Under the pieces are notes generated by a model. It searched no databases, was not told the DNA's origin, and saw only the letters and a list, made by a program, of their open reading frames with translations. A program made the position numbers and the translations under genes. This document shows, in pieces, positions 5,336-29,048 of a DNA stretch of 48,945 bases. The DNA comes from a virus. Position 1 is the stretch's first letter. Each line of letters starts with the position of its first letter. The DNA is taken from IMG/VR virus record IMGVR_UViG_3300018080_000250, positions 1-48,945 of that record, one strand, 5' to 3'.

Positions 5336-5379
5336 CAGCCCCGTGAGGGGGACGACGGGGGACGACGAGGAGGGGGACG

Positions 5380-5709: not shown

Positions 5710-5711
5710 CC

Positions 5712-8807: not shown

Positions 8808-8829
8808 GGGAGGACCGACGGGAGGGGGG

Positions 8830-11101: not shown

Positions 11102-11388
11102 ACAGCGCAGACCACGGCATCATCCCCTTCCCCGCCGACCGGGTGCCACTGGTGGGCCGGAAGAACCCGGTCATGCGGGTGAAGGTCAACGACGACGAAG
11201 TGCTAGAGGTCTTCCCTCCGAAGGCCGATGCCGAAGACGAGCAGTGGGACGCATTCGGTGCCCTGGCCGGAATCATGGTGATGGCCAAGGCCATGCAGGG
11301 CGCCGACCCCTGGGGCGACCTGGTGGCTGTGGCCGCCCGGAAGTACGTAACTCGCTTCCAGCCCATCGTCACGCCGGACTGCGGGTAG
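11098..11388 (+). CDS. Hypothetical protein, 96 aa
   Basis: Unrecognised. An N-terminal beta segment (VMRVKVNDDEVLEVFPP) is followed by a helical region (ALAGIMVMAKAMQGADP). GGAAGG lies upstream. It is placed between portal and the Mu F-like gene and may be a minor head component; there is no sequence proof of that. Confidence 0.55.
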   Translation: MNSADHGIIPFPADRVPLVGRKNPVMRVKVNDDEVLEVFPPKADAEDEQWDAFGALAGIMVMAKAMQGADPWGDLVAVAARKYVTRFQPIVTPDCG

Positions 11389-11398
11389 GAGACCGTCC

Positions 11399-12643: not shown

Positions 12644-12654
12644 GGGGGGGAAGC

Positions 12655-12834
12655 ATGGACAGGAAGGGCATGTTGGCTCTCGCCGGAATCTTCGTACTCG
12701 GCTGCGTGGCGAGCTGGGCCGTCTTCGGTCTCGGCGGCGCCTGGCGCGTCGGGATCCTGAGCTACCTGAGCGGGGCGCTCACCGTGGTGGCTTTGGCGAC
12801 GTGGTACACGGTGAAGCAGAAGGGGGCTGGGTGA
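12655..12834 (+). CDS. Small two-helix membrane protein, 59 aa
   Basis: The frame runs MDRKGMLALAG to VKQKGAG, with two hydrophobic segments (about residues 6-28 and 31-51) and a basic C-terminus. A GGGGGG site precedes the ATG, and its stop overlaps the next ATG as TGATG, which supports it being real. Two short membrane helices are holin- or antiholin-like, but the lysis cassette is elsewhere (30.2-32.1 kb). The role is unknown. Confidence 0.55.
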   Translation: MDRKGMLALAGIFVLGCVASWAVFGLGGAWRVGILSYLSGALTVVALATWYTVKQKGAG

Positions 12835-13043
12835 TGGCGAAGGGGGGTGCGAATGCCGAGCAGCGACCATCTTCAGTGGTGGTCCAGAACCTCGACGACG
12901 GTCAGGTGATGGTCTGTCTGCCGTCGGAGTTCAACGGCGAAGTGAAGCTGCAGTGTCAGGGGGGGGTGGTGGCCAAGGTACGGGTCGACTCCGTGTCCAG
13001 GCCTCTCGGCTACACGGAACTCACGGAGACACTCCAGGGTTAA
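12834..13043 (+). CDS. Hypothetical protein, 69 aa
   Basis: Unrecognised, a compact beta-rich protein (SSVVVQNLDDGQVMVCLPS, EVKLQCQGGVVAKVRV). The ATG at 12834 overlaps the previous stop. It is the last gene before a 140-base non-coding stretch that carries a promoter and a terminator, so it may end the upstream operon. Confidence 0.6.
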   Translation: MAKGGANAEQRPSSVVVQNLDDGQVMVCLPSEFNGEVKLQCQGGVVAKVRVDSVSRPLGYTELTETLQG

Positions 13044-13048
13044 AGTCC

Positions 13049-13079
13049 TTGACAACGGCCCAGGGTAGGGTTTTACCTT
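13049..13079 (+). promoter_or_regulatory. Candidate sigma-70 promoter upstream of the head operon
   Basis: A perfect -35 hexamer TTGACA (13049-13054) is followed by possible -10 elements TTTTAC (13071-13076, 16-base spacer) or TACCTT (13074-13079, 19-base spacer). The -10 is imperfect and the choice uncertain. It sits at the start of the only sizeable gap in this part of the genome. Confidence 0.5.
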
Positions 13080-13119
13080 CGGGTCAGACATAGCAGTACC
13101 GGGCCACCGGAACGAACCG

Positions 13120-13167
13120 CGCCCGGCCAGCTCTCCATGACGGAGGGCAGGCCGGGCGTTTCTTTTT
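13120..13167 (+). terminator. Rho-independent terminator ahead of the capsid genes
   Basis: A long two-part hairpin: CGCCCGGCC (13120-13128) pairs with GGCCGGGCG (13150-13158), an inner stem CTCTCC/GGAGGG (13131-13136 / 13142-13147) encloses ATGAC, and TTTCTTTTT follows (13159-13167). It is the most convincing + strand terminator in the window, and it lies between a promoter and the genes that promoter would be expected to express. Confidence 0.8.
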
Positions 13168-13185
13168 GCGGGCTGGGGAGGGGAC

Positions 13186-14241
13186 ATGGGAGAGGGTGCG
13201 GCGGTCGTCGAAAGACTGGACCTGCATGAAGTCGTACCGGCCGGGGAATTTCTCCACGAAGCCACCGTCGAAGGCAACATCATCCAGAACGTGAGCCTCC
13301 TCGGATCGGTGAGCAGGAACGGCCGGGTCTATACCCGCGAGGCCATGCAGGACGCCGTGCGCCTCTACAATGGCGTGCAGGTCTTCGCGGACCATCCCAG
13401 CTACAACGACCTCACGGGCACCGGCGGGCGGAAGTTCATGGACCTGGCCGGCAAAATCCTCAACACCCGTCTCTCTGGAGACCGGGTACGTGGGGACGTG
13501 CACCTCATTGCCGGCCATTCGGTCGGGGAAAACCTCAAGACCATCGCAGAACAGATGCCCGACCTGGTGGGCTTCAGCCACCGGGCCAAGGGCGAGAGCG
13601 AGACCGCCGAAGACGGTACGGTGGTAATCAAGCGCCTCACCGAAGTGAAGGCGCTGGAAATCGTCGTGGATCCGGCAACCACCGATGGGCTTTTCGAGTC
13701 CACGATCGAACAACCTGAGGAGCAGGGGGAGGAAGAGATGAAGGATCTCAAGGCCGTGACGATGGAAGAGCTGAAGGCCCAGCGGCCCGATCTCCTTGAG
13801 GGGATCACCGAGGCCGTCAGGAAGGATCTGGAGGCCCAGGCCGATCAGGACACCGAGCTCACCGAGGCCAAGGAGCGGATCACCGAGCTGGAGGCCGAGA
13901 ACAAGGACCTCCAGAGCAAGCTCGACGAGGCCGAGGTGGCGATCGCCACCCGGGAGCGCCAGGACCTCATCGACGAGAAGCTGGCCGAGGCCGAACTGCC
14001 CGACGAGGCCGTGACCGACCGGTTCAAGAAGGACCTGCAGGAGGCCAAGGACGAGGCTGCCGTCGACGAGATCATCGCCGATCGCAAGGCCCTGGTCGAG
14101 AGCCTGCCCAAGAACCTCCGGTCCGGACAGCCGCGTCAGCCGGCTCGGAAGATCGACGACGTGGTCGAGGGCAAGGGGGAGGAACCCAAGCCGGTCACCG
14201 ACGACGTGGTCGGCGACGCCATGCAGAAGGCATTCAGCTAG
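13186..14241 (+). CDS. Head maturation protease fused to scaffold
   Basis: A 351-aa protein. Residues 1-170 resemble a prohead serine protease: NGRVYTREAM, VFADHPS (candidate catalytic H70), LVGFSHRAKG (candidate S131) and EIVVDPAT (acidic residue near 162). Residues 185-351 are highly charged, predicted coiled coil, with a Q/E/K-rich tail, as expected of a scaffold. The protease cleaves scaffold and sometimes capsid during maturation. Both roles in one reading frame, with a strong internal start at codon 185, match the lambda C/Nu3 plan. GGGGAGGGG precedes the ATG. Confidence 0.8.
   Translation: MGEGAAVVERLDLHEVVPAGEFLHEATVEGNIIQNVSLLGSVSRNGRVYTREAMQDAVRLYNGVQVFADHPSYNDLTGTGGRKFMDLAGKILNTRLSGDRVRGDVHLIAGHSVGENLKTIAEQMPDLVGFSHRAKGESETAEDGTVVIKRLTEVKALEIVVDPATTDGLFESTIEQPEEQGEEEMKDLKAVTMEELKAQRPDLLEGITEAVRKDLEAQADQDTELTEAKERITELEAENKDLQSKLDEAEVAIATRERQDLIDEKLAEAELPDEAVTDRFKKDLQEAKDEAAVDEIIADRKALVESLPKNLRSGQPRQPARKIDDVVEGKGEEPKPVTDDVVGDAMQKAFS
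13738..14241 (+). CDS. Internal in-frame scaffold protein, 167 aa
   Basis: Inside the protease-scaffold gene an in-frame ATG (13738) is preceded by GGGGGAGGAAGAG, one of the best ribosome binding sites in the window. The product starts MKDLKAVTMEELKAQ and consists only of the coiled-coil scaffold part. In lambda the scaffold Nu3 is made from such an internal start within the protease gene. Separate expression is inferred from the start site alone. Confidence 0.6.
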   Translation: MKDLKAVTMEELKAQRPDLLEGITEAVRKDLEAQADQDTELTEAKERITELEAENKDLQSKLDEAEVAIATRERQDLIDEKLAEAELPDEAVTDRFKKDLQEAKDEAAVDEIIADRKALVESLPKNLRSGQPRQPARKIDDVVEGKGEEPKPVTDDVVGDAMQKAFS

Positions 14242-14245
14242 GCCA

Positions 14246-14259
14246 GGACCGGCCGGTCC
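14246..14259. repeat. 14-bp perfect palindrome after the scaffold gene
   Basis: GGACCGGCCGGTCC lies 4 bases after the scaffold stop, in a 109-base gap otherwise without genes. It could form a short hairpin that stabilises or separates transcripts. There is no T run, so I do not call it a terminator. Confidence 0.4.
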
Positions 14260-14350
14260 AGGCTGTCAGGAGTCCAGTACGGCGTGCGCCCCTCGGGTGG
14301 CCACGTCGGAACCACGGACAGACGACCCGAAGGGAGAGTGAGGGGAGAGG

Positions 14351-15160
14351 ATGAGCGACCGACAGCTGTATCGGAAGACGGGCAACACCTTCAGAGGGCC
14401 CGTCGACAGTGCCCAGACCATCGAGCTGGGCGACATGGTGTTCCTGAACACCGACGACATCCGGTCCATGGCGCAGTTCACCTACGGCGCCAGCCTGGCG
14501 ATCACCCAGGTCAACGCGGCCGCCAAGTTCCTGGGCGTCGCCATGAACGCCTCGGAATCGGGCGAGGTCAGGGACATCACGATTCGTGGGACCGGCGTGT
14601 TCGAGTTCGACTGCGCGGCCGCCACGTTCGAGATCGGCGACCTGGTGGCGCTGGACGACAACGCCGGCGGCACGGCGCTCTTGCCGCAGCAGGTCATCGC
14701 CTGCGGCGAGAACGGGCACGGCGCCATCGGACGCGTGGCCAAGCGGTACAGTGCGAACACCACGCGGGTCGAGGTCGAGCTGCTCAAGCACCGGCCCGAG
14801 CCGTACCCGGTGATCATCCCGATCTACGAGGGACTCATCACCGCCGGTGCCGACTTCGTCACCGACTGGACGGCCCAGTACCCGTTCAAGCTGGTGGCAA
14901 TCCACACGTTCGTCACCGTGCTCACCGCTGGCGCCCTGACGCTGAGCGTCCACAAGGGAGCCACGGCGCTGGACGACACCGTGACCATCGCGGACGGGAG
15001 CGCCGTCGGCGTCACGGGCCGCACGGCCATGGACGACGCCACCGGCGACGACCTGTTCCTGGCCGGCGACACGCTGAGCCTCGTGGGAGACGGGACGCCG
15101 ACGGCCGGGCAAGCCCTGATCGCCATCGAGATCAAGCCGATGAACATGCAGGTGGCTTAA
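14351..15160 (+). CDS. Putative capsid decoration (cement) protein
   Basis: A 269-aa beta-rich protein between scaffold and major capsid, the usual site of head decoration genes. The N-terminal region (AQTIELGDMVFLNTDD, FLGVAMNASESGEV, FEIGDLVALDDNAGG) repeats the G-D-x-V pattern of capsid cement proteins. The C-terminal half (LTLSVHKGATALDDTVTIAD, GDTLSLVGDGTPTAGQALI) looks like an added beta domain that would project outward. GGGGAGAGG precedes the ATG. The domain calls are from pattern resemblance. Confidence 0.6.
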   Translation: MSDRQLYRKTGNTFRGPVDSAQTIELGDMVFLNTDDIRSMAQFTYGASLAITQVNAAAKFLGVAMNASESGEVRDITIRGTGVFEFDCAAATFEIGDLVALDDNAGGTALLPQQVIACGENGHGAIGRVAKRYSANTTRVEVELLKHRPEPYPVIIPIYEGLITAGADFVTDWTAQYPFKLVAIHTFVTVLTAGALTLSVHKGATALDDTVTIADGSAVGVTGRTAMDDATGDDLFLAGDTLSLVGDGTPTAGQALIAIEIKPMNMQVA

Positions 15161-15215
15161 CGGTCGCCTGACCGTGTCCTCGGCTGCAGGGAGATAGTCG
15201 AAGACCAGGGTTCGG

Positions 15216-15231
15216 GGGTCGGGAACGACCC
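15216..15231 (+). repeat. GNRA-type hairpin in the leader of the capsid gene
   Basis: GGGTCG (15216-15221) and CGACCC (15226-15231) enclose GGAA, a stable GNRA tetraloop. It lies in the 118-base gap before the major capsid gene, whose ribosome binding site (GGGGAGGGGAGG) follows 30 bases later. It may protect or regulate the capsid mRNA; it lacks a T run. Confidence 0.45.
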
Positions 15232-15278
15232 GGCCCCCGGGCCCGACGAGGGGAGAACCTGGGGAGGGGAGGAAGACG

Positions 15279-16559
15279 ATGCTTCGCAGATCGGAGATCC
15301 GCAGCCTGGTCGAGGCGCATGGCGTGCAGGGGTACCTGGAGATCCAGGCCCGCATGCTTGGCCTGTCCAAGGATGGGCGGATGAACAGAGACGAAAACGG
15401 GACGCCCATCCTGGAGAGCCACGTCCAGCTGGACAACGGCCGCAAGCTCCCCAGGAAGCGCCCGGAAGACTTCTCGATCAAGGCGCTGTGGGAGGCGCTG
15501 GTCGGGCCTGTCGAGGAAACGCTCGCCTACAGCCAGCAGCAGTTCGGCTACGTCGAGCATCCCATGGAGTTCCGGGAATCGGAGGGCGGCGGGGTGTCCA
15601 CCGGCGCGTTCCCGAGCGCGGTGGGCCAGCTCATCGCCACCCGGGTGATCGAGGGCTACTCGGGCGCCAGCGGCGTGGGCAACGAGCTGGTGACCGTCAT
15701 GCCGTCCACCCTGCGGGGTGAGAGGGTCGTCGGGTTCACCAGCCTCCAGGGTCCGAAGGAAGTGGCCGAGGGCGAGGAGTACGAGGACTCGACGTTCCGT
15801 GAGAAGTACGTCACCACGATCGAGACCAAGCGGGGCCGCCTGCTCAGCATCACCGAGGAGGCTGTGCACCACGACCAGACGGGCCAGATCCTGCGCCGGG
15901 CCGCCATGCTCGGGCAGAAGGCCGCCGACGACCGTGAGCGGCGCATCATCCGGGGCGTGGCGGACGTGAAGTCCACGGAGCGCGTCTACCGGCCCAGCGG
16001 AACCGGTGAGCAGCTCTACGCCTCGGGCAACACGAACTACATCTCCACGGCGACGCCGCTGGTGGACTGGACCGACATCCAGGAGGTCTTCACCTGGCAC
16101 GCCGGCAACGTGACCGACGACAGGGAGACCGACGACGAGCTCGGCGCCCAGCCCATCGTCTGGAAGCCTACCCACCTGCTCAGCTCGGTCGAGCTCACGG
16201 GTGTGGCCGCTCGGATCTTTGCCGCGACGATCACCACGTCGGGCAACGTGGAGGCCCCGGCCGCCGCGGTGCTGAACGCCCTGAACGCCGGCGGGATCAA
16301 GCCGGTGGCCAGCCCCTACCTGGACGCTGCCGCCGGCAACGCGGCCGACGACCAGTACGACGATGCCAGCGACTGGTTCATCGGGGATTTCCCGAACCAG
16401 TTCGTCTACAAGGAGAACTGGCCGCTCCAGACGTTCCGGGCGCCCATGACCTCGGACTCTCAGTTCCGCAGGGACATCCTCGCCGAGTTCAAGATCCGCG
16501 AGTACGGCGACCTGAACTGCGTCGAGGAGAAGCTGGTCGTGAAGGTCAACGCCGCCTAA
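15279..16559 (+). CDS. Major capsid protein (HK97-type fold, inferred)
   Basis: A 426-aa protein in the canonical position after protease/scaffold and decoration genes. The N-terminal 90 residues are helical and could be a delta domain. The central part has capsid-like features: a long spine helix region (ILRRAAMLGQKAADDRERRI), an E-loop-like beta stretch (YEDSTFREKYVTTIETKRGR) and a C-terminal A-domain-like segment (DWFIGDFPNQFVYKENWPLQ, IREYGDLNCVEEKLVVKV). The strong ribosome binding site and flanking hairpins suit a highly expressed gene. Confidence 0.8.
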   Translation: MLRRSEIRSLVEAHGVQGYLEIQARMLGLSKDGRMNRDENGTPILESHVQLDNGRKLPRKRPEDFSIKALWEALVGPVEETLAYSQQQFGYVEHPMEFRESEGGGVSTGAFPSAVGQLIATRVIEGYSGASGVGNELVTVMPSTLRGERVVGFTSLQGPKEVAEGEEYEDSTFREKYVTTIETKRGRLLSITEEAVHHDQTGQILRRAAMLGQKAADDRERRIIRGVADVKSTERVYRPSGTGEQLYASGNTNYISTATPLVDWTDIQEVFTWHAGNVTDDRETDDELGAQPIVWKPTHLLSSVELTGVAARIFAATITTSGNVEAPAAAVLNALNAGGIKPVASPYLDAAAGNAADDQYDDASDWFIGDFPNQFVYKENWPLQTFRAPMTSDSQFRRDILAEFKIREYGDLNCVEEKLVVKVNAA

Positions 16560-16623
16560 CGGCAGCGCACTGACCTGACCCACCACCAACAGGATCCGGT
16601 GGGGGGGGGTGGGGTGGACGGGA

Positions 16624-16654
16624 CCGGGGTCCGGCCCGCACGGGCCGGCCCCGG
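16624..16654 (+). repeat. Strong GC hairpin after the capsid gene
   Basis: CCGGCCCG (16631-16638) and CGGGCCGG (16641-16648) form a stem, extended past one bulged T by CCGGGG/CCCCGG (16624-16629 / 16649-16654). There is no T run, so it is more likely an RNA-stabilising or partially terminating hairpin than a full terminator. A long G run (16599-16616) sits just upstream. Confidence 0.45.
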
Positions 16655-16692
16655 CGGATCCATCGAACGAAGGAGAGGAGCGAGCGGTACCC

Positions 16693-17178
16693 ATGGAGAC
16701 CAATCCGCACGTCGAGATCCGCTACCTGGACGACAACCGCATCGTCTACGGCCAGGCCGAATGGCTGAGCCAATACGTCGATGCCGGGGAGGCGCTACCC
16801 ACCGAGAAGTACGCCGCCGTCTACCACGCCTGGGCCCGGGCCCGGGGCAAGGTGGTCCCGGAGGTTCCCTCCGAGCCCGAAGAGGACGTCGAGGAGCCGA
16901 AGGCGCAGCACGAGTCCGCAGGGGACGAGGGCAACGATGAGTCGGCCCAGGAGAAGGAAACGGAGTCAGCCGGGCAGGAGAAGGAAGCTGCCGAGAAGGA
17001 GGAGGGGCAGCCGGAGCCCGAGGAGGAGACCCAGGACATCGGCGTCCCTCTCGGCTACGAGGTCCGGCAGTACGGCAAGTGGTACGTCGTCTACGATCCG
17101 GACGACGGGAAGGTCGGCAAGGGGCAGGACACCTACGCCGATGCGGTGAAGCTCGCCCGGGACCACGCGGGCCTGTAG
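16693..17178 (+). CDS. Acidic-linker structural protein, 161 aa
   Basis: Unrecognised. Residues 1-55 and about 115-161 look folded (VEIRYLDDNRIVYGQAEWL; GYEVRQYGKWYVVYDPDDG). They are joined by a 60-residue E/K/Q/P-rich acidic linker that should be disordered. AAGGAGAGGAG lies upstream of the ATG. Placement after the capsid gene suggests a minor head or connector-associated protein. Confidence 0.6.
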   Translation: METNPHVEIRYLDDNRIVYGQAEWLSQYVDAGEALPTEKYAAVYHAWARARGKVVPEVPSEPEEDVEEPKAQHESAGDEGNDESAQEKETESAGQEKEAAEKEEGQPEPEEETQDIGVPLGYEVRQYGKWYVVYDPDDGKVGKGQDTYADAVKLARDHAGL

Positions 17179-17192
17179 GGGGCCGCTGAGCC

Positions 17193-17579
17193 ATGGCGCT
17201 CACCTTCGATGTGACGACGAGTCGGGGCAAGGTCAGGCTGCTGATCCACGACACCGACACGGCGACGGCGGCGAACCAACTGTTCACCGACGCCGAGATC
17301 GACGCGTTCCTGTCGCTGGAGAACCAGGAGGTCTACGCGGCGGCGGCGGCGGCCTGTGAGAGCATCGCCTCCTCGGCGGCCCGAAGCGCCATCCGGGTCC
17401 GCGCCGAGCGCATCTTCGACATCGACCGGCGGGACGTGCCCGGCCACTTCATGAAGCTCGCCAAGACGTTCCGGGCCCGGGCTGTGGAGGGTGAGCCGTG
17501 GGAGATCAACGACTCGGTGGACTACCACATCGACCGCTACGGGCGCGACCTCGGCGAATCCTGGGGTGAGGAGGTTTAG
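17193..17579 (+). CDS. Putative head-tail connector / adaptor protein
   Basis: A 128-aa mostly helical protein (FTDAEIDAFLSLENQEVYAA, AAAACESIASSAARSA). The first part, with VRLLIHDTDT...LFTDAEI, matches the usual opening of phage head-tail adaptor proteins that bind below the portal (gp6 / gp15-like). It follows the capsid block and precedes other connector and tail completion genes. The family call is from resemblance. Confidence 0.65.
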   Translation: MALTFDVTTSRGKVRLLIHDTDTATAANQLFTDAEIDAFLSLENQEVYAAAAAACESIASSAARSAIRVRAERIFDIDRRDVPGHFMKLAKTFRARAVEGEPWEINDSVDYHIDRYGRDLGESWGEEV

Positions 17580-17581
17580 TT

Positions 17582-17983
17582 ATGGCCAACGCTCCGCGCT
17601 CCGATGTCCTGAGTGGCTTCGAGAAGGAGCAGGTCCTGGCCACCGTCCGGGACGTGCTGGACGACACCGACGTGCAGGTCGAGATCACGCTGAAGAGCCT
17701 GACGTCGCAGAGCGTCGACCTGGAGACCGGGGCGGTCACCCGTACCTCGGATGCCGATACGGTCAACGCGCTTCGGCGTGTGGTCATGGCGCCCGAGGTC
17801 ACGGCGAACGGAACGCAGCTCGAGCCCGAAGACCGGGTGTACCTCATCGACCAGGCCGACCTGACGAACACTCAGCTCCAGACCGTGGACCGGATCGTCG
17901 AAGGCACGCTGGTGCTCGGCGTCATCGATTTCGCCGCCGACCCATTCGACATGGTCTGGCAGATCGTTGCGAGGGCTGTGTGA
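17582..17983 (+). CDS. Hypothetical neck or head-closure protein, 133 aa
   Basis: Not firmly recognised. It lies between the adaptor and the gp10-like gene, where head-closure or stopper proteins usually lie. It has beta-rich segments (VQVEITLKSLTSQSVDLETG, DRVYLIDQADL) compatible with a small barrel. Its stop overlaps the next gene by one base (TGATG). Confidence 0.55.
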   Translation: MANAPRSDVLSGFEKEQVLATVRDVLDDTDVQVEITLKSLTSQSVDLETGAVTRTSDADTVNALRRVVMAPEVTANGTQLEPEDRVYLIDQADLTNTQLQTVDRIVEGTLVLGVIDFAADPFDMVWQIVARAV

Positions 17984-18324
17984 TGCTGCTCTACCGCTGC
18001 CCCATCGACCGGAAAGAGTTGTTCAGGGCCGAGGGGCCCGTGGGCGTGCGGATCTCGATTCCGTGCAAGCAGTGCAAGGCGGACGGACGGTCGCCTTACG
18101 TGACGCCCGTGGTCGATGATGGCCCGGTGTTTCAGCGGACCTGCCGGTGCACGAGCTGCAAGCGGACGCAGGTCATCGACTGTCCCGTGGACGACTCCAT
18201 GGTCTGCATGGTCTGCGGCACCCGGACGCTGGTAGTCGTCGAAGAGGTTCGGCCCAGGCCCGAGCACGAGAAGGGCCGAGAGACGGTGGCCATGAAACAA
18301 AGGCAGGCGCCGATGTCGGGATGA
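17983..18324 (+). CDS. Com-like zinc-ribbon protein, 113 aa
   Basis: Two Cys clusters: the first (YRCPIDRKELFRAEG ... IPCKQCK) resembles the Com zinc-binding fold of phage Mu, which controls translation of a modification gene by binding mRNA; the second (CRCTSCKRT ... MVCMVCG) looks like another ribbon. The C-terminus is basic and polar. Com-like genes normally lie next to a DNA-modification gene; none is seen here, so its target is unknown. A purely structural zinc protein is the alternative. Confidence 0.55.
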   Translation: MLLYRCPIDRKELFRAEGPVGVRISIPCKQCKADGRSPYVTPVVDDGPVFQRTCRCTSCKRTQVIDCPVDDSMVCMVCGTRTLVVVEEVRPRPEHEKGRETVAMKQRQAPMSG

Positions 18325-18375
18325 GGTGTGCCGAGTTGGAGCAGAAGGACGAGAGCCCATAGAGGCCCGACGAGA

Positions 18376-18410
18376 GGCCCGAGGCTGAAGAGAGCTTCGG
18401 GCCGTTGTTG
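18376..18410 (+). terminator. Hairpin with weak T-rich tail after the Com-like gene
   Basis: GGCCCGAGGCT (18376-18386) pairs with AGCTTCGGGCC (18393-18403), with one G-T pair and a GAAGAG loop, followed by GTTGTTGTAG. The tail is T-rich but interrupted, so a partial terminator or processing hairpin is possible. The 117-base gap that contains it holds no gene. Confidence 0.45.
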
Positions 18411-18441
18411 TAGCGACGAGAAAGGAACGGGGTGAGACAGC

Positions 18442-19005
18442 GTGGCGAGAAACGAGGACGGCTTCACCATCGACCTGGAGACGGAAGGCTTCCGGGACTG
18501 GACGGAGTCCGTCATCAAGGAGCTTCGGGCCGAGCATGCCCGGCTGTTTCTCAGGAAGACCGCGCTGGAGTTCCTGAAGCGAGTCATCGACCGGACGCCG
18601 GTGGACAAGGGCCGGGCCCGGGCCGGGTGGCAGAGCTTCCTCATCGACCAGGGCGCGGCCTCGCCGATCACAGGCCCGGACGTGGACCCAGCCGCCGTGG
18701 CCGAGGGCCGGTCGCTGTCCAGCTACCAGGAGGGCGGCGGACTGTTCAGCACGGATCACTTCATCGAGATCATCAACGGCGTCAGCTACATGATCTACCT
18801 GGAGTACGGCTCCAGCGACCAGGCACCGGCGGGCATGGTCCGCGTCACGTTCCGCGAAATCCAGCTCGGCCAGGTCATGAGCAAAGCCATGAGCGAGCGG
18901 CTCCAGAAGCTCTACACCCAGGTCAACCGGCGGATGCGCTCGCAACGGCTTTCGTCGCGTGGTCGTGGCTTCGGGGCGCTGTCCGCTGTGGGCTCGGCGG
19001 GATGA
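18442..19005 (+). CDS. Tail completion / neck protein, HK97 gp10-like
   Basis: A 187-aa protein with GTG start. It shows the family features: an N-terminal helix, RTPVDKGRARAGW (about residues 52-64), then NGVSYMIYLEYGSSDQAPAG (about 112-131), the pattern of HK97 gp10-like proteins that join head and tail. The basic C-terminal tail (RRMRSQRLSSRGRG) is an addition. The next gene begins 11 bases later and looks like a tail terminator. Confidence 0.8.
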   Translation: MARNEDGFTIDLETEGFRDWTESVIKELRAEHARLFLRKTALEFLKRVIDRTPVDKGRARAGWQSFLIDQGAASPITGPDVDPAAVAEGRSLSSYQEGGGLFSTDHFIEIINGVSYMIYLEYGSSDQAPAGMVRVTFREIQLGQVMSKAMSERLQKLYTQVNRRMRSQRLSSRGRGFGALSAVGSAG

Positions 19006-19016
19006 GGGGGTGAGCC

Positions 19017-19475
19017 GTGGCCAGGGAGACCGAGAACGTCCAGATCAGCGTGCTGAAGCACTTCAACACCCAGCTCGCCGGCACGTCTTCGATCCACTGG
19101 CCGGGCATGGACTTCGATTCGAAGGCGGTGACCGAGTGGCTCCGGCCCAGGCTGTTCGGGCCGACGCCTCAGCCGTCGAGGAAAAGCGAGCGGAGGGAAA
19201 GCTGGATCCTGGACACGGGCTGCTTCGCCAAGACCGGCGAGACGTCCGCCGGGGTCCAGAAGGAAAACATTCACCGCACGAGAGAGCTGGCCGACGCGGT
19301 GATCGGGGCTTTTGGCCAGCAGGACATCAACCTCCAGGACTGGGGCGCAGGCGGCGATCCGGTCATTGGAATCATGCGGTTCGAGGAAGCGGAAGTGACC
19401 GCTGTGCCCGAGCCGCTGGAGAAGAGCGACCTACAGCAACTGACGGTGCGAGTACCGTTTACGGTGATCCTCTAG
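19017..19475 (+). CDS. Putative tail terminator protein
   Basis: A 152-aa protein with GTG start, between the gp10-like gene and the tail tube gene, the classic location of the gpU-like ring that ends tail polymerisation. The C-terminal beta strand (DLQQLTVRVPFTVIL) suits this fold. The sequence itself gives no decisive motif; the call leans on gene order. Confidence 0.6.
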   Translation: MARETENVQISVLKHFNTQLAGTSSIHWPGMDFDSKAVTEWLRPRLFGPTPQPSRKSERRESWILDTGCFAKTGETSAGVQKENIHRTRELADAVIGAFGQQDINLQDWGAGGDPVIGIMRFEEAEVTAVPEPLEKSDLQQLTVRVPFTVIL

Positions 19476-19511
19476 GGGGCCTAGGGGGCGGACGAGGGGA
19501 GGAAGAGGACG

Positions 19512-19997
19512 ATGCCTGTCAAGAATCTGAGGGATGGGACGATCAAGATCGCGGACTCGGGCGGCACGGGCGGTTCGGACGTGATCACAGTGGCCGTGGA
19601 GGAAGGTGATCTCCAGTGGACCGAGTCGAGTCCGGTGGACATGATCAGCGACCGCGGCACCCTGGACCATGCACGCCAGGGCAACGATGTGCCGGTGGAG
19701 GGCTCGTTCTCGATCCTCTACCAGGACCACCTGGACCCGAACAGCGCCACGATCACGCCCTACGAGGCGGTGACGCAGCAGGGCGCGGCGGCGGGCTGGA
19801 GCTCCGACGCCTCGAACGGCGGTGACGCCTACGCGGTGATCCTGGAGTTCACCATGAGCGATCCCTCCGGCGGCTCCGACGAGGTGGTCACGTTCACCGA
19901 GGCCTACGTCGAGGTTGTCGAGTTCCAGGAGAGCTCTCCGTCGAACAAGATGGCGTTCAACTTCCGGGCTCTCATCACGCGGCCGAGCTACAGCTAA
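19512..19997 (+). CDS. Major tail tube protein
   Basis: A 161-aa beta-rich protein (MPVKNLRDGTIK, GDLQWTES, DHLDPNSATITPYEAV, AVILEFTMSDPSGGSDEVVT) in the usual tail tube position. Repeating hexamers of such proteins stack into the tail. GGGGAGGAAGAGG precedes the ATG. The next gene begins with a clearly related domain, so this is the plain-length copy of a duplicated pair. Confidence 0.8.
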   Translation: MPVKNLRDGTIKIADSGGTGGSDVITVAVEEGDLQWTESSPVDMISDRGTLDHARQGNDVPVEGSFSILYQDHLDPNSATITPYEAVTQQGAAAGWSSDASNGGDAYAVILEFTMSDPSGGSDEVVTFTEAYVEVVEFQESSPSNKMAFNFRALITRPSYS

Positions 19998-20041
19998 CCC
20001 TGCCCCTGACCCCGGGCCGGGGGGAGAGGAGGCTGTAGGCC

Positions 20042-22423
20042 ATGCCGGTCAAGAATCTGAGAGATGGCACCATCAAGGTGCAGGTCGACAACGACGGCGG
20101 CGGCAACGCTGGCGAGGTCGAAGTCACGCTGGAAGAAGGCGACCTCCAGTGGACCGAGTCCCGGCCCGTGCAGATGCACATGGACCGGGGCACCCTGGAC
20201 CACGCCCGCAGGAACGTCCAGGACCAGCTCGTCGAGCTGTCGTTCAGCGTCATGTACACCGACCACCTGGACCCCAACTCGGCGAGCCCCACGCTCTACG
20301 AGGCCCTGACCCAGCAAGGCGCTGCGGCCTCGTGGGTATCGCAGAACTTCGATTCGGACGACTACGCCGTGAATCTGGAGTTCACGGTATCGGACCCGGC
20401 GGGCGGCTCGGACGAAGAGATCAACTTCGACCGGTTCAACATCACCTCCATCGAGTTCAGCGAAGGCGACCCCTACAACAAGCTCCAGATCACCGGCACG
20501 GCCCCGCTGTATTGGGTCGACTTCTGGTGGAAAGCGGGCATGGGCCTGAACCCGCTCATCGGCGAACGGGGCGTCTTCAGCCGGGCCTCGACGGCGACGT
20601 TCGTCGATGACGATGGATACCTTGCCTATGCCCGATCGGGTGAACCCAGGACACGCCATCATCCGAGCATGACCGGCGCGGCGGGGTTGCTCGAAGCTCA
20701 ACGCACGAACCTGCTCACCTACTCCGAAGAGTTCGACAACGCGGCGTGGGCGACGAACAATGTCTCGGTGACGGCGGATCAGAAAGACGCGTTCGACGGA
20801 TACACGACCGCCGACCAACTGACCGACGACGGCACGAACGACTACCACTATATCTCGGACGGGGTGACGGGCACGGCAAACGCGAATTACGCCATGTCCT
20901 GCCATTTCAAGGACGGCGATGCGGGCTTTGGGTACGTGATCGTCAGCCAGAACGGGACGTTCGCAAACCGGGCCATCGCTTACGTCGATCTGTCCGACGG
21001 GACGGTGACGAGCTACGACAACGGCACGGCGTCCGTCGTTCGCGCCTATGTCGAGACGGTGGCGGAAGGCTACCGGCTGATTCTCGTCGCTTCGGTGGGC
21101 AACTCCGCGACGTCCATCGACTGCCACATCGGCGTCAGTGAAGGCGGCGGAAGTCTTGCGACGGGGTCGTATGTTGGTTCCGGCAAGTACATCTATGCCT
21201 GGGGCGCTCAGTTTGAGGACGACGTAGGCTTCGCTTCATCCTACATCCCGACGTCCGTCTACAACCTCGATCCTGACGGCTATCTCGATCTTCCCGGTAC
21301 GGCGGCGAACTACGCTTCAACGCCTGACGCGGCGGCCCTGGACATCACCGGGGATATCGACATTCGGGCCAGGATCGCGGCGGATGATTACACGCCAGGA
21401 AGCGCGGAGACCCTGTTAGCAAAATGGGACACGGCGGGAGACGAGCGGTCCTATCTTTTGCGAATTACGACTTCCGGGGAACTGATTTTGAGTTGGTCTA
21501 CCGATGGCACGGCGGGGAATGTTGTGAACGAAACGTCATCGGTCGCCTTGACAACGACCAACGGCGAAATCACTTGGGTTCGGGCGACGCTCGATGTCTC
21601 GACTGGGAACGTCAATCTCTACACGTCCGACGACGGCGAGAACTGGACCGCTCTCGGAGCGGTTCAGAGTTCCGGCGCGACATCGGTGTATTCGGGTTCC
21701 GCTGTTTTAGCGGTCGGGGCCTATTCTAACGGGACAACGTCTCCGTTCTCTGGCAAAATCTACCGCGCCCAAGTCTACGACGGGATTGGTGGAACACTGG
21801 CGTTCGACGCCGACTTTCAGGACACGGACCAGCACGGCGCAACGCGTAAGACACTCACCGAGAAGTCGAGCAACGGCGCGACCGTCACGATCTATTCGAC
21901 GTCTTCGACAGCGACCAGGGTCGCGGACAACCTGTACTTCCCGCTTCCGGCGGCAATCGCTACGCCGAAGGAGCAGACGTGGCTCGCACGATTCCGCGAG
22001 GCGGGGAGCATCATCGACGCGACGGGCGGTCGAATTGCTCAGATCGGCGGACCATCGGCGGGAAGTGATCCGCGCTGTTGTTTGGCCGATACGGGCGCAG
22101 GCTTGTATTCGTTTGGCCACGACAATGGCACATCAAACGTAATCGCCGCACTTGCAGCGGCTCCGTCGATTCAGGACGAAGTCGAATTGCGCGCCAATTT
22201 GGGGAGCGATGGCGCGGTATTGGTTGGGCAAAGTATAGGCCAGGCGGCGGAAACGAGCGAGGACGACGCAACGGCGAACGCTTTGTCGGGAGCATGGTCC
22301 GCCGAAAAGATATGGATAAATAGTTCCGCCGGGGGTGCGTCTCAAGTCGGGTTTTTGCACATCCGCGAAATGATCGTCGCCCGTCGGACCCGCACTCTCG
22401 AAGAACTTCGGAAGGTAGGTTAG
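20042..22423 (+). CDS. Second tail tube domain fused to adhesin-like domains, 793 aa
   Basis: Residues 1-160 are a paralogue of the preceding tail tube protein (shared MPVKNLRDGTIK, GDLQWTES, DRGTLDHAR, DHLDPNSA, TQQGAAA). Residues about 175-405 resemble a phage fibre or spike carbohydrate-binding module (FSRASTATFVDDDGYL, AQRTNLLTYSEEFDNAAW, AWGAQFEDD...SSYIPTS). Residues about 415-595 look like a concanavalin/LamG-type beta sandwich (YLDLPGTAANYASTPDAAAL, ERSYLLRITTSGELILSW, FSGKIYRAQVYDG). Residues about 640-793 may be a further module ending VARRTRTLEELRKVG. It would place sugar-binding domains along or at one level of the tail. GC falls sharply after the tube domain, suggesting a transferred extension. 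Confidence 0.75.
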   Translation: MPVKNLRDGTIKVQVDNDGGGNAGEVEVTLEEGDLQWTESRPVQMHMDRGTLDHARRNVQDQLVELSFSVMYTDHLDPNSASPTLYEALTQQGAAASWVSQNFDSDDYAVNLEFTVSDPAGGSDEEINFDRFNITSIEFSEGDPYNKLQITGTAPLYWVDFWWKAGMGLNPLIGERGVFSRASTATFVDDDGYLAYARSGEPRTRHHPSMTGAAGLLEAQRTNLLTYSEEFDNAAWATNNVSVTADQKDAFDGYTTADQLTDDGTNDYHYISDGVTGTANANYAMSCHFKDGDAGFGYVIVSQNGTFANRAIAYVDLSDGTVTSYDNGTASVVRAYVETVAEGYRLILVASVGNSATSIDCHIGVSEGGGSLATGSYVGSGKYIYAWGAQFEDDVGFASSYIPTSVYNLDPDGYLDLPGTAANYASTPDAAALDITGDIDIRARIAADDYTPGSAETLLAKWDTAGDERSYLLRITTSGELILSWSTDGTAGNVVNETSSVALTTTNGEITWVRATLDVSTGNVNLYTSDDGENWTALGAVQSSGATSVYSGSAVLAVGAYSNGTTSPFSGKIYRAQVYDGIGGTLAFDADFQDTDQHGATRKTLTEKSSNGATVTIYSTSSTATRVADNLYFPLPAAIATPKEQTWLARFREAGSIIDATGGRIAQIGGPSAGSDPRCCLADTGAGLYSFGHDNGTSNVIAALAAAPSIQDEVELRANLGSDGAVLVGQSIGQAAETSEDDATANALSGAWSAEKIWINSSAGGASQVGFLHIREMIVARRTRTLEELRKVG

Positions 22424-22949: not shown

Positions 22950-23468
22950 ATGCGCCTGAAGAACCACGAAGTACAGAGCATCCGCGAGACCGGGCAGTTC
23001 GTGCTCCGGGACGACGAGGAGCACGGCACGATCGTGCTGGAGATCCAGGCGCTGCCGCCGGACTTCGACGAGGAGACCGAGGAGCAGTTGCCCACGCCGC
23101 AGCCGAAGCGGCTGGGTCCTGAGCGGGACAAGAAGGGCCGGGTCGTGCTCGGCACTGACGGCAAACCGGTGATTCGCTACGACGAGTCGGACTCGGCCTA
23201 CCGGGAGTCCAGGCGCGAGCACACGAAGCTCCAGGCGGTCAAGATTGTGCTCGACGGCGTCCGGCCCGGCCAGATGGAGTTCAGTACCGCCAAGCCCGAA
23301 GGCGGCGACTGGCCGGCCTTTTACCGCGACGCCCTCCTGGAGATGAAGGCGTTCGGGTTCAGTCTCGGAGACATACTGGATCTGGTGAAGGCCATCACGA
23401 ACCTCTCGAACATCGGTGAGGAGGAGGTGAAGCGAGCCGAAGAGGTTTTTTTCGAGGCGGCGAGCTGA
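22950..23468 (+). CDS. Tail assembly chaperone, short form (gpG-like)
   Basis: A 172-aa protein just upstream of the tape measure, where tail assembly chaperones lie. It has a folded N-terminal part with strand-rich sequence and a helical C-terminal part (WPAFYRDALLEMKAFGFSLG, IGEEEVKRAEEVFFEAAS). A T-run slippery site lies near its end, and an open -1 frame continues past its stop, as in lambda G/GT. The chaperone would coat the tape measure during tail assembly. The family is assigned on position and frameshift architecture. Confidence 0.75.
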   Translation: MRLKNHEVQSIRETGQFVLRDDEEHGTIVLEIQALPPDFDEETEEQLPTPQPKRLGPERDKKGRVVLGTDGKPVIRYDESDSAYRESRREHTKLQAVKIVLDGVRPGQMEFSTAKPEGGDWPAFYRDALLEMKAFGFSLGDILDLVKAITNLSNIGEEEVKRAEEVFFEAAS

Positions 23469-23752: not shown

Positions 23753-26350
23753 GTGGCCAACACAACGATCTCCCAGGGGCTGATCGCCCGACTCGGGGCG
23801 AACCTCAACGCATATGAGCGAGGCCTCCGCTCGGCGGTCCGTAAGGCCCAGGCCGCAGGGCGGGATCTGCAGGGCGCGTTCCGGGGCGCCAGCCGGCGGA
23901 TGCGGTCCCTCGGCAAGTTCGCCGGGGTGGTGGCCCTGGCCATCGGCGGCATCAGTGTCGCCGCCGTCAAGATGGCCTCGGACTTCGAGACAGCCATGGC
24001 CGAGGTCTCGACGCTCCTGGACGACAGCCTCCAGGGGGTGGGCCAACTCACCTCCGCCGTCGAACGCCTGAGTCTCCAGTACGGCGTCAAGCTCACCGAA
24101 CAGGCCCGGGGTCTCTACCAGACGATCAGTGCCGGAGCCACAGAGGCCGCGTCCGCCACCCAGATCCTGGAGGTCGCCAACCGGGCAGCCGTGGCGGGCA
24201 TCACCGATGTGGCCACGTCGGTGGAAGCCATCATGCGGGTGGTCAACGCCTACAGCCTGGAGGCCGACGAGGCCATGCGGGTGAGCGACGGCCTCTTCAC
24301 CGTCGTCAAGAAGGGCGTGACCACGTTCGGCGAGCTGGCGCCGAAGATCGGGCAGGTCGCGGGTACCGCTGCCACGGCAGGCGTCCAGATGGAGGAGCTG
24401 TTCGCCATCATCGCTACGGCGACCAAGGCGCTCCCCATGGAGCAGGTCATCAGCGGCACGAACCAGCTCTTCCTCTCGTTCATCAATCGGGCCGCCGACG
24501 CGGAAAAGGTCGCCAAAGAGCTGAACGTCCAGTTCGACGCCAGCGCCCTGGCGGCCAAAGGTGTACACGGCGTGCTCGGCGAGGTCATCGGTGCCCTGGG
24601 CGTCGGCGTCGATGAGCTCCAGCGGATCGTCGGTGCCGGAGCCAGTACCGAGGCGACCATGGGCCGCCTGGCCAACCGGACCGGACTGGCGGCGGAAGCC
24701 ATCCAGGCGCTGTTCCCCAGCGTCGAGGCGCTTCGGGTCGCGCTGGCCCTGGTCAAGAACGACGGCGCCGACTTCACCAGCCAGCTCCAGGCCCAGGCCG
24801 AGGCCAGCGGAGCCACGGACACGGCCTACCGGAAGATGGCCGCCACGTTCGGGTTCCTGGCCAAGCAGGTGAAGCAGGAGGTCGCGGCGGCGTTCGTGGC
24901 GCTCGGCAACGTGCTCCAGCCGGTGGCCCGGGACGCAGCGTCGGCGGTGGGTACGCTGGCCCGGAAGGTCAGGGAGTGGGTCCAGGCCAACCAGGACCTG
25001 CTCCAACAGAACGTGACCCGGGTCTTCGAAGCGGTGATCCGTGGCGTCGGCACGGCGGTGGAGAAGATCGTCACCGTGGTGGAGTTCTTCAAGAACAACC
25101 CCATCGCCGGCGAGTTCGGCATCGTCGGCCTCGTGTTCCTCGGGCCCGCCGGAGCGGCGGCGTTCACGATGGTGGGCGCGGTTATCGACACCATCATGGG
25201 CAAGATCGTCGGCGCCACCGATGTGGCCGGACGGCTCCAGCAGAACATCGACGAAGCCGCCAGCAGGATGCAGGCGCTCCAGACCGAGAAGGCCATGGGC
25301 AACCTGTCCAAGGAGCGCGTGGAGGAGGTCAACCAGGAGCTCGTGCATCTGTCCGGCGTCATCGAAATGAATCAACGCACGCTGGACTCTCTCGGGAACG
25401 AAGGAAAGTCTGCCTTCGACCAGATTGCCGAAGCCATCCGCAACGCCGCCCAGGCGATGCAGAACTTCAGCCTCGGAAACTTCGAGTCGGGGTTCGGTGG
25501 CGGCGGCGGTGGTGACGAGTCTCCGACCGCACGCATGGCCCGGGACGTGGAGAGCATGCGGTTCAACTTTGAGCCGATTCCGTTCCTGGTCGGTGAGGTC
25601 TCGGCGAACCTCGATACAGCGGCAGGGCGAGCGGCCCGCCTCCGGGCAGAGCTAGAGTACGACATGGCCTCTGCCGTAGAAGATCTCGCTTTCAGTATTA
25701 GCGGCAGCGTCGGCAACGCCCTAACCGACATGCTCACGGGCGTCAGGGATGTTGGGGACGCCGTAGCCAACCTGGCACGGGCCATCCTGCGAGACGTTGT
25801 CGGGGCGCTGATTCGAGCCACGGTTCAGGCCACGATCCTGCGGTCCATCATGAGCGCGTTCGGGCTACCCATTCCTGTCCCCATCCCCACCGGCGCCTCC
25901 GGAGGGATCATTCCTGGACGACCCCACCAGCCGTTTCCGATGGTGGCCCACGGGGGAGAGGTGGTCCTCAACCGTGGCGCCGTAGCGGCGCTGGGCGGGC
26001 CCTCCAGTGCGAACCGTCTCAACCAGCCGGGCGGCCTCAGCTTCCCCAAGCATGCCATGGCGGCACTCGCCAACGCGACTCAGGCGGCTAGGGCGCCTGA
26101 GGAAGTGCGGCTCTCGAAGGACGCCGTAGCGGCGCTCGCGGGCATCGGCCAGCCTGCTCCGGTCGCAAGAGCCTCAAGGCTAGGCCCAGCCGAATCGCCG
26201 TCCATGCCCAGCTCGTTCAGCCTGGTCCTGCCCGATCCTGACCAGCTGCCCAACCCCATCGACTACGGTGTGATCGCATCAAAGCCCGCGATCATCCGCC
26301 TGTTCACCGAAATGTTCCGCCAGGCCCGGCTTGTCGGGGCAGTGCGGTAG
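23753..26350 (+). CDS. Tail tape measure protein
   Basis: An 865-aa protein with GTG start. The N-terminal part matches the TP901-type tape measure core (SDFETAMAEVSTLLDD, VKLTEQARGLYQTISAGATE, VATSVEAIMRVVNAYSLEAD). Long helical stretches with small hydrophobic segments follow, and the end has the typical GGIIPGR...VAHGGEVVLNRGA pattern. The tape measure sets tail length; at the usual ~1.5 A per residue this predicts a tail near 130 nm. It follows the frameshifted chaperone, as expected. Confidence 0.9.
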   Translation: MANTTISQGLIARLGANLNAYERGLRSAVRKAQAAGRDLQGAFRGASRRMRSLGKFAGVVALAIGGISVAAVKMASDFETAMAEVSTLLDDSLQGVGQLTSAVERLSLQYGVKLTEQARGLYQTISAGATEAASATQILEVANRAAVAGITDVATSVEAIMRVVNAYSLEADEAMRVSDGLFTVVKKGVTTFGELAPKIGQVAGTAATAGVQMEELFAIIATATKALPMEQVISGTNQLFLSFINRAADAEKVAKELNVQFDASALAAKGVHGVLGEVIGALGVGVDELQRIVGAGASTEATMGRLANRTGLAAEAIQALFPSVEALRVALALVKNDGADFTSQLQAQAEASGATDTAYRKMAATFGFLAKQVKQEVAAAFVALGNVLQPVARDAASAVGTLARKVREWVQANQDLLQQNVTRVFEAVIRGVGTAVEKIVTVVEFFKNNPIAGEFGIVGLVFLGPAGAAAFTMVGAVIDTIMGKIVGATDVAGRLQQNIDEAASRMQALQTEKAMGNLSKERVEEVNQELVHLSGVIEMNQRTLDSLGNEGKSAFDQIAEAIRNAAQAMQNFSLGNFESGFGGGGGGDESPTARMARDVESMRFNFEPIPFLVGEVSANLDTAAGRAARLRAELEYDMASAVEDLAFSISGSVGNALTDMLTGVRDVGDAVANLARAILRDVVGALIRATVQATILRSIMSAFGLPIPVPIPTGASGGIIPGRPHQPFPMVAHGGEVVLNRGAVAALGGPSSANRLNQPGGLSFPKHAMAALANATQAARAPEEVRLSKDAVAALAGIGQPAPVARASRLGPAESPSMPSSFSLVLPDPDQLPNPIDYGVIASKPAIIRLFTEMFRQARLVGAVR

Positions 26351-26783: not shown

Positions 26784-29048
26784 ATGAGTGAGATCACCCG
26801 CGCCTACCAGCTCCGGATCTACGATACCGCGGGCTCGTCCGTCGAGACGACGTTCGACTCCACCGACATCGAAGGACTCCCGTCCTTCGGCTGGACCACG
26901 CCCAGGCCGCTGGAAGGCCGCATCGAGAACGTGCCCAGCGTCGTCACCGTGGCGGACATCGGCGAGCAGGTCACGGCCATCCTGTCGGGAGCGGACGGCA
27001 GGGCGGACCTCATCGGGCGCCTGGCCGACATCCGGATCAACGAGAGCGGGGCGGGCTACGCCGTCGTGCATGCCGGGCGCATTACCGAGATCCGGTTGAA
27101 TGAAGAGGTGGCCGGCTTCAACTTCCACATTGCCGACGAGCGGTGGCTGGAGAAGGGCGCCACGGTCCTCACCTCCGGATCCACCACGCAGATCCTGCCC
27201 TCGGGTACGGTCAGCGCCTTCAAGGACTTTGGCGCCGCTCCGACGATGCGGCTCCAGGTCGTTCGGGTACCAAGCGCGGACCGGCTGGTCCTCTCCCCTG
27301 TCGATTCAGTGATCGTCTCCCGGTCCGTCGTCGAGTGGTTGGAAAACGACCTGACGTTTGAAATTTCCTGGATCACCGGCAACACGCCTTTCGGGTATAC
27401 CAAGCTCCGGGCCAGCGCCGGCGACCGGGACATCCTGAGCTTCACGCGGGAGACCCTTGGCCCGGTGCTGGGCAACCTCCAGGAGCAGTCTCAGGACGGC
27501 GAGCCCCGGGAGCTCCAGTACATCTACGTGAAATGGACCAGCCACGGGTATTCGGTCGGCAACGAGATCTCCGGCTGCTACATCTACGCTCCGAACGCAC
27601 CGCCCTCGGAATGGACACCCATCCATGTCGGGGGCGAGAGCGGGGTCGATTTCTTCAGCTGGGTCAAGGACCAGTACGACACGCTGGGCATCAACTACGA
27701 GAACCCCGGGGCGTTCAGCACCTACAACGCGAGCACGAACCCCAACGGACTCCTTTCCCACCCGAGGATCCCGAAGATCCACATCCGGGCCACCGAGCCG
27801 GTGAATTTGGGGGAGATGGTCGAGAAGGGGTGCAAAATGCTGGCCATCGTGCCCTTTGTGAACTCCGCTGGCGAGGTCGCGCCCCGGTTCGTCACGAACC
27901 TCCAGGACGTCAATCCCGCGACGTTCACCGAGATCACGGCGTCCATCGCCACCGATCCTCATCCCACATGGAGCCAGACGTCGGGCGAGATCGTCACGGT
28001 CATCCAGTCCCGCTACACCAACATGATTCCGGCGGATGATGAGCAAGTCCGGACCGGCAACGATGTACCGGTGGACCGGATCGTTGCAGAGGAGCATCCG
28101 CTGGTTGAGTGGGAGCACGACCGAGTCAGCCAGCTCGGGCGGCACGAGCTGGAGCTCGACATGACACTCATCACGGACGGGATGGCAGCCTACCGGCTCC
28201 TCTTTCAGCAGGGCCGGGAGATCTTCGACCGGTTCGGCGACGGCCCGATTACGGGCAGCGTCCGGGCCATGAGCGGAGCGAAAACCGTGGAGCCCGGCGA
28301 TTACGTGAAGCTCACACTCTCCAGCTTCCCGAATGTCGGCATCCAGGCCCGGGGCGGGACGCGCATCGTCCAGATCATGAGCCGGGAGGTGGAGAGCGGC
28401 TACACGTTCACCTACCTGGATGCGGGCCCCAACAGCGTGGCCCTGTCCGCGCCCGGATGCGCCATCGCCAAGAACGGCACGGACGGGAAGCACGCCGTGG
28501 ACGTGACAATCTCCTCCCTCACGGCGGGTTCCGCCTACGAGATTCAGCTCAAGGTGGGTGCGGGTGGAGACTGGACCACCTACGGGGTCGGGACCGCCAA
28601 TGAGACCGTCACGTTCGGCAACCTGCCGTCCGGGACCACCATCTACGCCCGGGCGCTAGAGACCGCGCCAGGCAGGATCAAGAGCGCCTACAGCTCCGCC
28701 GTCAACGTCACGCTGGACAGCCTTACCGCCCCCTCTGTCGCTACGGTCGACCAGATCGCCGGAGACCGGGCCCGGGGCAAGTGGACGAACGGTGAGACGG
28801 ACTACGACATCGAGGTGCTTTTGGACGGCACAAGGCTGGCCATCCTTGAGGCGGGCTCCACCCGGTACTACCTCACGGGCCTGACGCCCTCCACGACGTA
28901 CAACAGCCCGGGGTTTCAGGTCCGCCACATCGACCGGTTCGGCGGGGTGAGTGCCGCGTCGACGGACACGTTCTCCACCACGGGCACGGCCACAACGCTG
29001 ACCCAGCCGTTCGCCACCAGGGTCCTGGTGGGAGGTGATGCGGCATGA
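26784..29048 (+). CDS. Central tail-tip (hub) protein with fibronectin III-like domains
   Basis: A 754-aa protein. The N-terminal and central parts (about 1-550) look like a tail hub: beta-rich with repeated strands (VVHAGRITEIRLNEEVAGFN, PGDYVKLTLSSFPNVGIQAR). The C-terminal 200 residues carry two fibronectin type III-like modules (AVDVTISSLTAGSAYEIQLK; LTAPSVATVDQIAGDRARG ... YYLTGLTPSTTYN). Hub proteins close the tail tip, and such modules often bind sugars on the cell surface. Its stop overlaps the next gene by ATGA. Confidence 0.7.
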   Translation: MSEITRAYQLRIYDTAGSSVETTFDSTDIEGLPSFGWTTPRPLEGRIENVPSVVTVADIGEQVTAILSGADGRADLIGRLADIRINESGAGYAVVHAGRITEIRLNEEVAGFNFHIADERWLEKGATVLTSGSTTQILPSGTVSAFKDFGAAPTMRLQVVRVPSADRLVLSPVDSVIVSRSVVEWLENDLTFEISWITGNTPFGYTKLRASAGDRDILSFTRETLGPVLGNLQEQSQDGEPRELQYIYVKWTSHGYSVGNEISGCYIYAPNAPPSEWTPIHVGGESGVDFFSWVKDQYDTLGINYENPGAFSTYNASTNPNGLLSHPRIPKIHIRATEPVNLGEMVEKGCKMLAIVPFVNSAGEVAPRFVTNLQDVNPATFTEITASIATDPHPTWSQTSGEIVTVIQSRYTNMIPADDEQVRTGNDVPVDRIVAEEHPLVEWEHDRVSQLGRHELELDMTLITDGMAAYRLLFQQGREIFDRFGDGPITGSVRAMSGAKTVEPGDYVKLTLSSFPNVGIQARGGTRIVQIMSREVESGYTFTYLDAGPNSVALSAPGCAIAKNGTDGKHAVDVTISSLTAGSAYEIQLKVGAGGDWTTYGVGTANETVTFGNLPSGTTIYARALETAPGRIKSAYSSAVNVTLDSLTAPSVATVDQIAGDRARGKWTNGETDYDIEVLLDGTRLAILEAGSTRYYLTGLTPSTTYNSPGFQVRHIDRFGGVSAASTDTFSTTGTATTLTQPFATRVLVGGDAA

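Follow-up and report, generated by a model that had tools for sequence, protein, structure and literature searches.

In the tail of SPP1, the tube protein gp17.1 is mixed with its frameshift-extended form gp17.1* at a ratio of ca. 3:1 (PMC8718954). Lactococcal 936 phages likewise mix MTP and MTP-TpeX by frameshift, with TpeX containing a carbohydrate-binding module (PMC6669499, PMC4759559) and binding specifically to host cells (PMC6669499). MTP-TpeX subunits of this group reach 470-530 residues (PMC6669499, PMC4759559), and in PhiC0139 immunogold labeling traces a spiral along the tail (PMC4759559). Two major tail proteins have also been annotated in actinophages of several clusters (PMC11080557, PMC12859696). 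In the case of RcGTA, the head spike fibre Rcc01080 attaches the particle to the polysaccharide capsule of R. capsulatus (PMC7296036), and tagged Rcc01080 binds cells better with capsule present (PMC10218006). Here, we analyze a locus in which a domain of the latter type is fused to a paralogue of a tail-tube protein.

The window, i.e. the whole stretch of DNA analyzed, is a 48,945-base record of an uncultured virus of bacteria. Its tail genes are arranged in the order neck, terminator, tube, tube/adhesin, two small genes and tape measure. The neck protein gene (18442-19005, phrog_169) is followed on the + strand by a putative tail terminator gene (152 aa, 19017..19475), assigned by synteny as it lies between the neck protein and tube genes like its counterparts in relatives; no family match of its own above E 0.01 was found in Pfam or PHROGs. 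Next come the gene for a plain tail-tube protein (161 aa, 19512..19997, + strand), a member of the tube HMM family and syntenic with the tube genes of relatives, and the gene for a 793-aa protein (20042..22423, + strand), an open reading frame recognized by the same HMM in which a tube paralogue is fused to an adhesin-like C-terminal extension. Both open reading frames are present at these positions and each is preceded by its own Shine-Dalgarno-like or purine-rich ribosome site, which for the fused gene reads directly as AGGAGG (20027..20032, + strand), 9 nt 5' of the ATG at 20042. Downstream, a putative tail assembly chaperone gene (172 aa, 22950..23468, + strand) was assigned by eye from its position and its similarity in sequence style to the post-tube gene of relatives, no family match being found in PHROGs. 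The tape measure protein (865 aa, 23753..26350, + strand) matches PF10145 (1.4e-21) and phrog_991 (4.5e-53). Both tube genes thus lie where a tube-protein gene is expected, after the terminator and before the chaperone and tape measure genes, with terminator and chaperone placed by synteny. Elsewhere in the window, upstream of the terminase, the product of the gene at 5343-6419 has matches to phrog_584 (major tail protein; residues 205-270) and to Pfam E1_FCCH (residues 228-295).

As the original prediction stated, the two adjacent genes share a tube domain. The 161-aa protein and residues 1-148 of the 793-aa protein are identical at 89 of 149 positions (60%, E = 1e-58), and the quoted words GDLQWTES, DHLDPNSA and TQQGAAA are all present. 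Sequence likeness of this degree rules out chance. Codon identity between the copies is 65%, with a dN/dS of ~0.37, a rough value as dS is near 1, which indicates two diverged coding copies and not an assembly repeat. Independent evidence comes from L022, a contig of 11,589 bp from a different metagenome; it is 99.95% identical to window positions 8485-20073 and includes the plain tube gene and the 5'-terminal 32 bases of the second gene. It stops 5' of the tube/adhesin junction, which is covered by one contig only. In a tree of the family the two copies are sisters (support 100/99) and more diverged than most decorated pairs. The fused tube domain retains 23 of 51 family-conserved columns (80% level) compared with 21 of 51 for the plain copy, and its branch is shorter (0.59 vs 0.94); at the sequence level, the tube domain of the decorated copy is therefore not decayed. 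The fused protein does differ at one place: a linker (residues ~161-177, 20522..20572, + strand, delimited by alignment and a survey of C-termini) stands where the usual tube C-terminus, ending near T-x-x-R, would be. In plain tube proteins this stretch is near-constant across the family, and its exchange for the linker could hinder incorporation of the fused subunit.

Structure prediction bears out the proposed tail-tube fold of the extended copy. The AlphaFold2 model of residues 1-162 (26 sequences, pLDDT 84.3, pTM 0.76) has a tail-tube fold, a beta-sandwich with flanking helix, and the top Foldseek match in the PDB for the tube domain (residues 1 to ~160, 20042..20521, + strand) is the tail of HFTV1 (Haloferax tailed virus 1; 9fkb, E 2.8e-4, prob 1.00). 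The remaining Foldseek rows are nearly all tail tubes, Hcp, Dit, terminators or baseplate adaptors, and VIA gave Z values of 6.5-7.9 over the tube/Hcp/Dit set, which are modest. Fold alone cannot separate a tube protein from Dit or a terminator, and because of the modest Z values and these similar folds, we base the identity of the tube protein on fold, paralogy and gene position together.

The tube family itself is widespread in IMG/VR. The plain tube protein has no match in Pfam, PHROGs or NCBIfam, and tblastn against 50,697 phage records yielded chance-level matches only, both for the window protein and with two relatives as queries. Single-protein scans with the tube returned a near-identical contig as the only match in IMG/VR and nothing in GTDB genomes. 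Relatives were found by using a DNA pattern based on the conserved core (W/Y-T..P-V....DRG.LD), followed by two profile scans of IMG/VR which gave 281 and 174 relatives, the best 80 of each being used. Eleven pattern matches in GTDB genomes were rejected as they read as chance frames or unrelated proteins. The relatives align across the whole tube domain, and their genes are flanked by those for terminator and chaperone, with the tape measure gene further downstream. The tube HMM covers residues 2-163 of the stop-to-stop frame, leaving an extension of 631 residues beyond it, in line with the ~630 residues originally given.

Since a joint alignment of the full protein wrongly placed adhesin-only relatives on the tube, the domains were modelled apart. 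The original prediction had described a spike-type carbohydrate module, a LamG-like module and a third module; three modules are indeed discernible, and the LamG-like label of the second is unconfirmed. Module 1 (residues 178-405, 20573..21256, + strand) is a sugar-binding domain of the GTA head-spike-fibre type. It matches NCBIfam NF048003 'GTA_spike_fiber' over residues 216-405 with 107 bits (cut-off 36, E 1.6e-30) and phrog_5939, a family of phage tail proteins (1.9e-37). A single-protein phmmer search matched PDB 6tb9, the RcGTA head spike fibre Rcc01080, at 3.6e-15; with a module 1 profile, which is helped by a near-identical RcapMu phage protein, the value was 2.9e-74. Searched as a whole against PDB sequences, the 793-aa protein has Rcc01080 as its only credible match. 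By sequence, module 1 is the domain of the capsule-polysaccharide binder Rcc01080, and the 793-aa protein would thus be expected to bind sugars. The usual carriers of this type of module are tail-fibre or J-like proteins encoded 3' of the tape measure gene. Locus L004 (7911-11701) contains it three times, in neighbouring adhesin genes that are paralogues of one another.

Module 2 (residues ~412-594, 21275..21823, + strand) belongs to a type found in tail-region proteins of Streptomyces and other phages. It matches phrog_5313 (3e-23) and, by tblastn, gp16 of Streptomyces phage Dubu (1e-14) and gp38 of phiSASD1 (4e-12), both encoded downstream of the tape measure; these relatives form the start of large proteins that come after the tape measure in Streptomyces phages. 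No LamG or lectin family match was found for it in Pfam or by PDB sequence search, and it shows no profile match to the C-terminal domains of the L004 adhesins. Module 3 (residues ~618-793, 21893..22423, + strand) is without known relative: searches of PHROGs, Pfam and phages (tblastn, E<1) gave no match, those of the PDB nothing credible, and no cellular adhesin family was found. The AlphaFold2 model of the extension, built from four sequences, reached a pLDDT of only 39 and was not used. GC3 is 0.90 in the tube domain and drops with each successive module (module 1, 0.79; module 2, 0.69; module 3, 0.56), which fits acquisition of the extension.

Dual tube genes with one longer copy recur among relatives. 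Two or three tube genes are present in 27 of ca. 120 distinct viruses of the tube family, the window included, these viruses being a sample of best-scoring loci and not a census. At least 16 pairs combine cores of 85-100% identity with a length difference of 60-200 residues between the copies, and the longer copy has its surplus in a loop near the N-terminus (lengths taken stop-to-stop, leaving out the L063 pair, which is cut by the contig end). Most pairs group by virus in the tree and not decorated with decorated, suggesting that the cores are apparently kept matched, either by recent duplication or by gene conversion. Such grouping is expected if both cores must fit one tube. Two loci, L130 and L182, bear a C-terminal extension of 111-123 aa on one of two diverged tube copies, and in both (L130 5965-7833, L182 4672-6489) the gene for the extended paralogue lies upstream of a terminator-like gene and the plain tube gene downstream. 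Among the members sampled, no other C-terminal extension comes near 631 residues. Other forms of decoration were observed as well. The sole tube gene of L163 (3615-5303) encodes 563 residues, including an insert in which one module is repeated several times; this module is also seen in major tail and sheath proteins of other phages (phrog_10909, phrog_2839). In L023 (872-1597 and 3255-4637, both - strand), a tube insert of ~80 residues is 42% identical over 77 residues to the repeated module of a neighbour gene (E 3e-13); this neighbour looks like a major capsid protein, and one module seems to decorate both head and tail.

A similar arrangement is found in Microbacterium phage DizzyRudy (L190, MK814756 8000-28000), where gp17, gp19 and gp20 are three tandem phrog_2645 paralogues. 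As in the window, one of the tandem tube paralogues has a large C-terminal extension: gp19 has a tube domain, which shares 46-51% identity with its neighbours, followed by 367 residues (gp19 of Camille is 410 aa). phrog_2645 paralogues occur at 480 places in 243 phage records, about two per genome. The DizzyRudy extension is of an unassigned type, and its tube family has no detectable sequence relation to that of the window, which implies that duplication of a tube gene with enlargement of one copy arose at least twice. The original prediction had also set the window protein apart by size, taking known tube decorations to be about 90 residues. Given the size of MTP-TpeX and of the DizzyRudy gp19 extension, this argument fails. 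The earlier interpretation is thus partly supported: it holds in outline but errs on how large known decorations can be.

Taken together, we consider it probable that the 793-aa protein serves as a minor subunit of the tail tube, giving the shaft capsule-binding arms. The 161-aa plain subunit would build most of the hexameric rings of the tube, with the first ~160 residues of the 793-aa protein occupying some ring positions. Its C-terminal ~630 residues would then project from the shaft as an arm whose module 1 may bind capsule or envelope polysaccharide, and repeated weak contacts of such arms would keep the virion within the capsule or close to the surface of the cell until the tail-tip proteins engage. 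Such an arrangement would have evolved by duplication of the tube gene in this lineage, after which one copy gained a tail-fibre or head-spike adhesin at its C-terminus. As a general rule, tape measure proteins account for ~1.5 A of tail length per residue. With a ring spacing in the tail tube of 38-43 A (PMC9022992), the 865-residue tape measure would correspond to roughly 30 rings and 190 subunits, so that tens of arms would result even if only a minor fraction of the subunits were of the fused type. Paralogy, tube fold, gene position, the identity of module 1 and the recurrence of paired tube genes of unequal length are shown by the present analysis; co-assembly of the two proteins, their copy ratio, the outward orientation of the arms and sugar binding by the 793-aa protein are inferred.

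The main rival to a minor subunit dispersed in the tube, to which we assign a distinctly smaller probability, is that the fused paralogue forms one special ring of about six copies at a tube end, e.g. next to the terminator and neck, as an adhesin collar. The 60% identity of the window copies, compared with 85-100% in most decorated pairs, is compatible with such a specialised position no less than with a mixed tube, and together with the loss of the plain C-terminus this divergence suggests non-equivalent ring contacts. The position of the extended gene in L130 and L182, apart from the plain tube gene and upstream of the terminator gene, points in the same direction, as do the neck passage structures of 936 phages, which carry CBMs (PMC6669499). 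On the other hand, most relatives that have a longer copy show nearly identical cores, which argues for interchangeable subunits, and the tube genes of the window are adjacent to each other and downstream of the terminator. The fold would also permit a Dit-like or baseplate-adaptor role, making the 793-aa protein an ordinary tail-tip adhesin. Foldseek and VIA both list Dit and baseplate adaptors, and the usual context of module 1 is downstream of the tape measure. We nevertheless regard this as improbable given the 60% identity to the plain tube protein, the location of the gene between tube and chaperone genes, and the presence of separate tail-tip candidates downstream (26784-29048, with a weak phrog_31 match).

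Two further explanations appear very unlikely. The gene might be an assembly chimera of a tube copy and an unrelated fibre gene, as the junction lies in a single contig, with L022 ending just before it, and GC3 shifts along the gene. Against this, the continuous 793-codon frame ends 3 nt before the next start codon, the likely ribosome site of the next gene lies within the last codons of the fused gene, and module 1 joins the tube end via a short linker, with similar architectures in L130, L182 and DizzyRudy. Least likely of all, the second copy could mainly be a diverged tube variant that evades a tube-sensing host defence such as DSR2, with the extension being incidental. DSR2 is known to recognize tail-tube proteins (PMC10981675, PMC11087589), but in relatives the cores are near-identical and only the decoration differs, the opposite of escape by divergence. 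The choice between extended subunits mixed through the shaft, which we favor, and extended subunits confined to one ring has become a testable question.

More generally, and with less confidence than for the window protein itself, we suggest that many uncultured siphoviruses might build mixed tubes from two genes, with recent duplication or gene conversion keeping the cores alike and one copy carrying exchangeable host-binding modules. The window would then be an extreme case, with a ~630-residue capsule-binding arm on the minor subunit. For annotation, this means that a gene called a tail fibre from its adhesin half may in fact encode a tube subunit.

In comparison with known systems, the window represents an unusually large version of a known design which has arisen independently in other phages. 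SPP1 gp17.1 and gp17.1* are likewise plain and C-terminally extended tube subunits, but are made by frameshift and differ by one FN3 domain. MTP-TpeX of PhiC0139 and Phi2R06A shares with the window protein a tube core of ~165 residues and a large C-terminal extension, present on a fraction of subunits there and presumably also here. It differs in arising from one gene by a programmed +1 frameshift, and its CBM is of the BppA type. The window has two complete genes, the fused 793-aa product being encoded in one continuous frame with its own start, and the module identified in this product is of the GTA-spike-fibre type. Lambda gpV and T5 pb6 also place a C-terminal domain outside the tube, but in these phages there is a single gene product, each copy of which bears one Ig-like domain. 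RcGTA Rcc01080 (GhsB, 6tb9) has the same domain as module 1 and is a capsule binder mounted on the particle body, but it sits on the head via a separate base protein (PMC7296036), while the window module is fused to a tube subunit. The interesting aspect is that the two kinds of subunit are encoded by separate genes and that this design recurs. SPP1 and lactococcal 936 phages rely on ribosomal frameshifting, whereas here two genes would set the dose of decorated subunits. This makes gene duplication a second route to a controlled supply of large host-binding modules along the shaft, and at least two unrelated tube families have taken it independently of each other.
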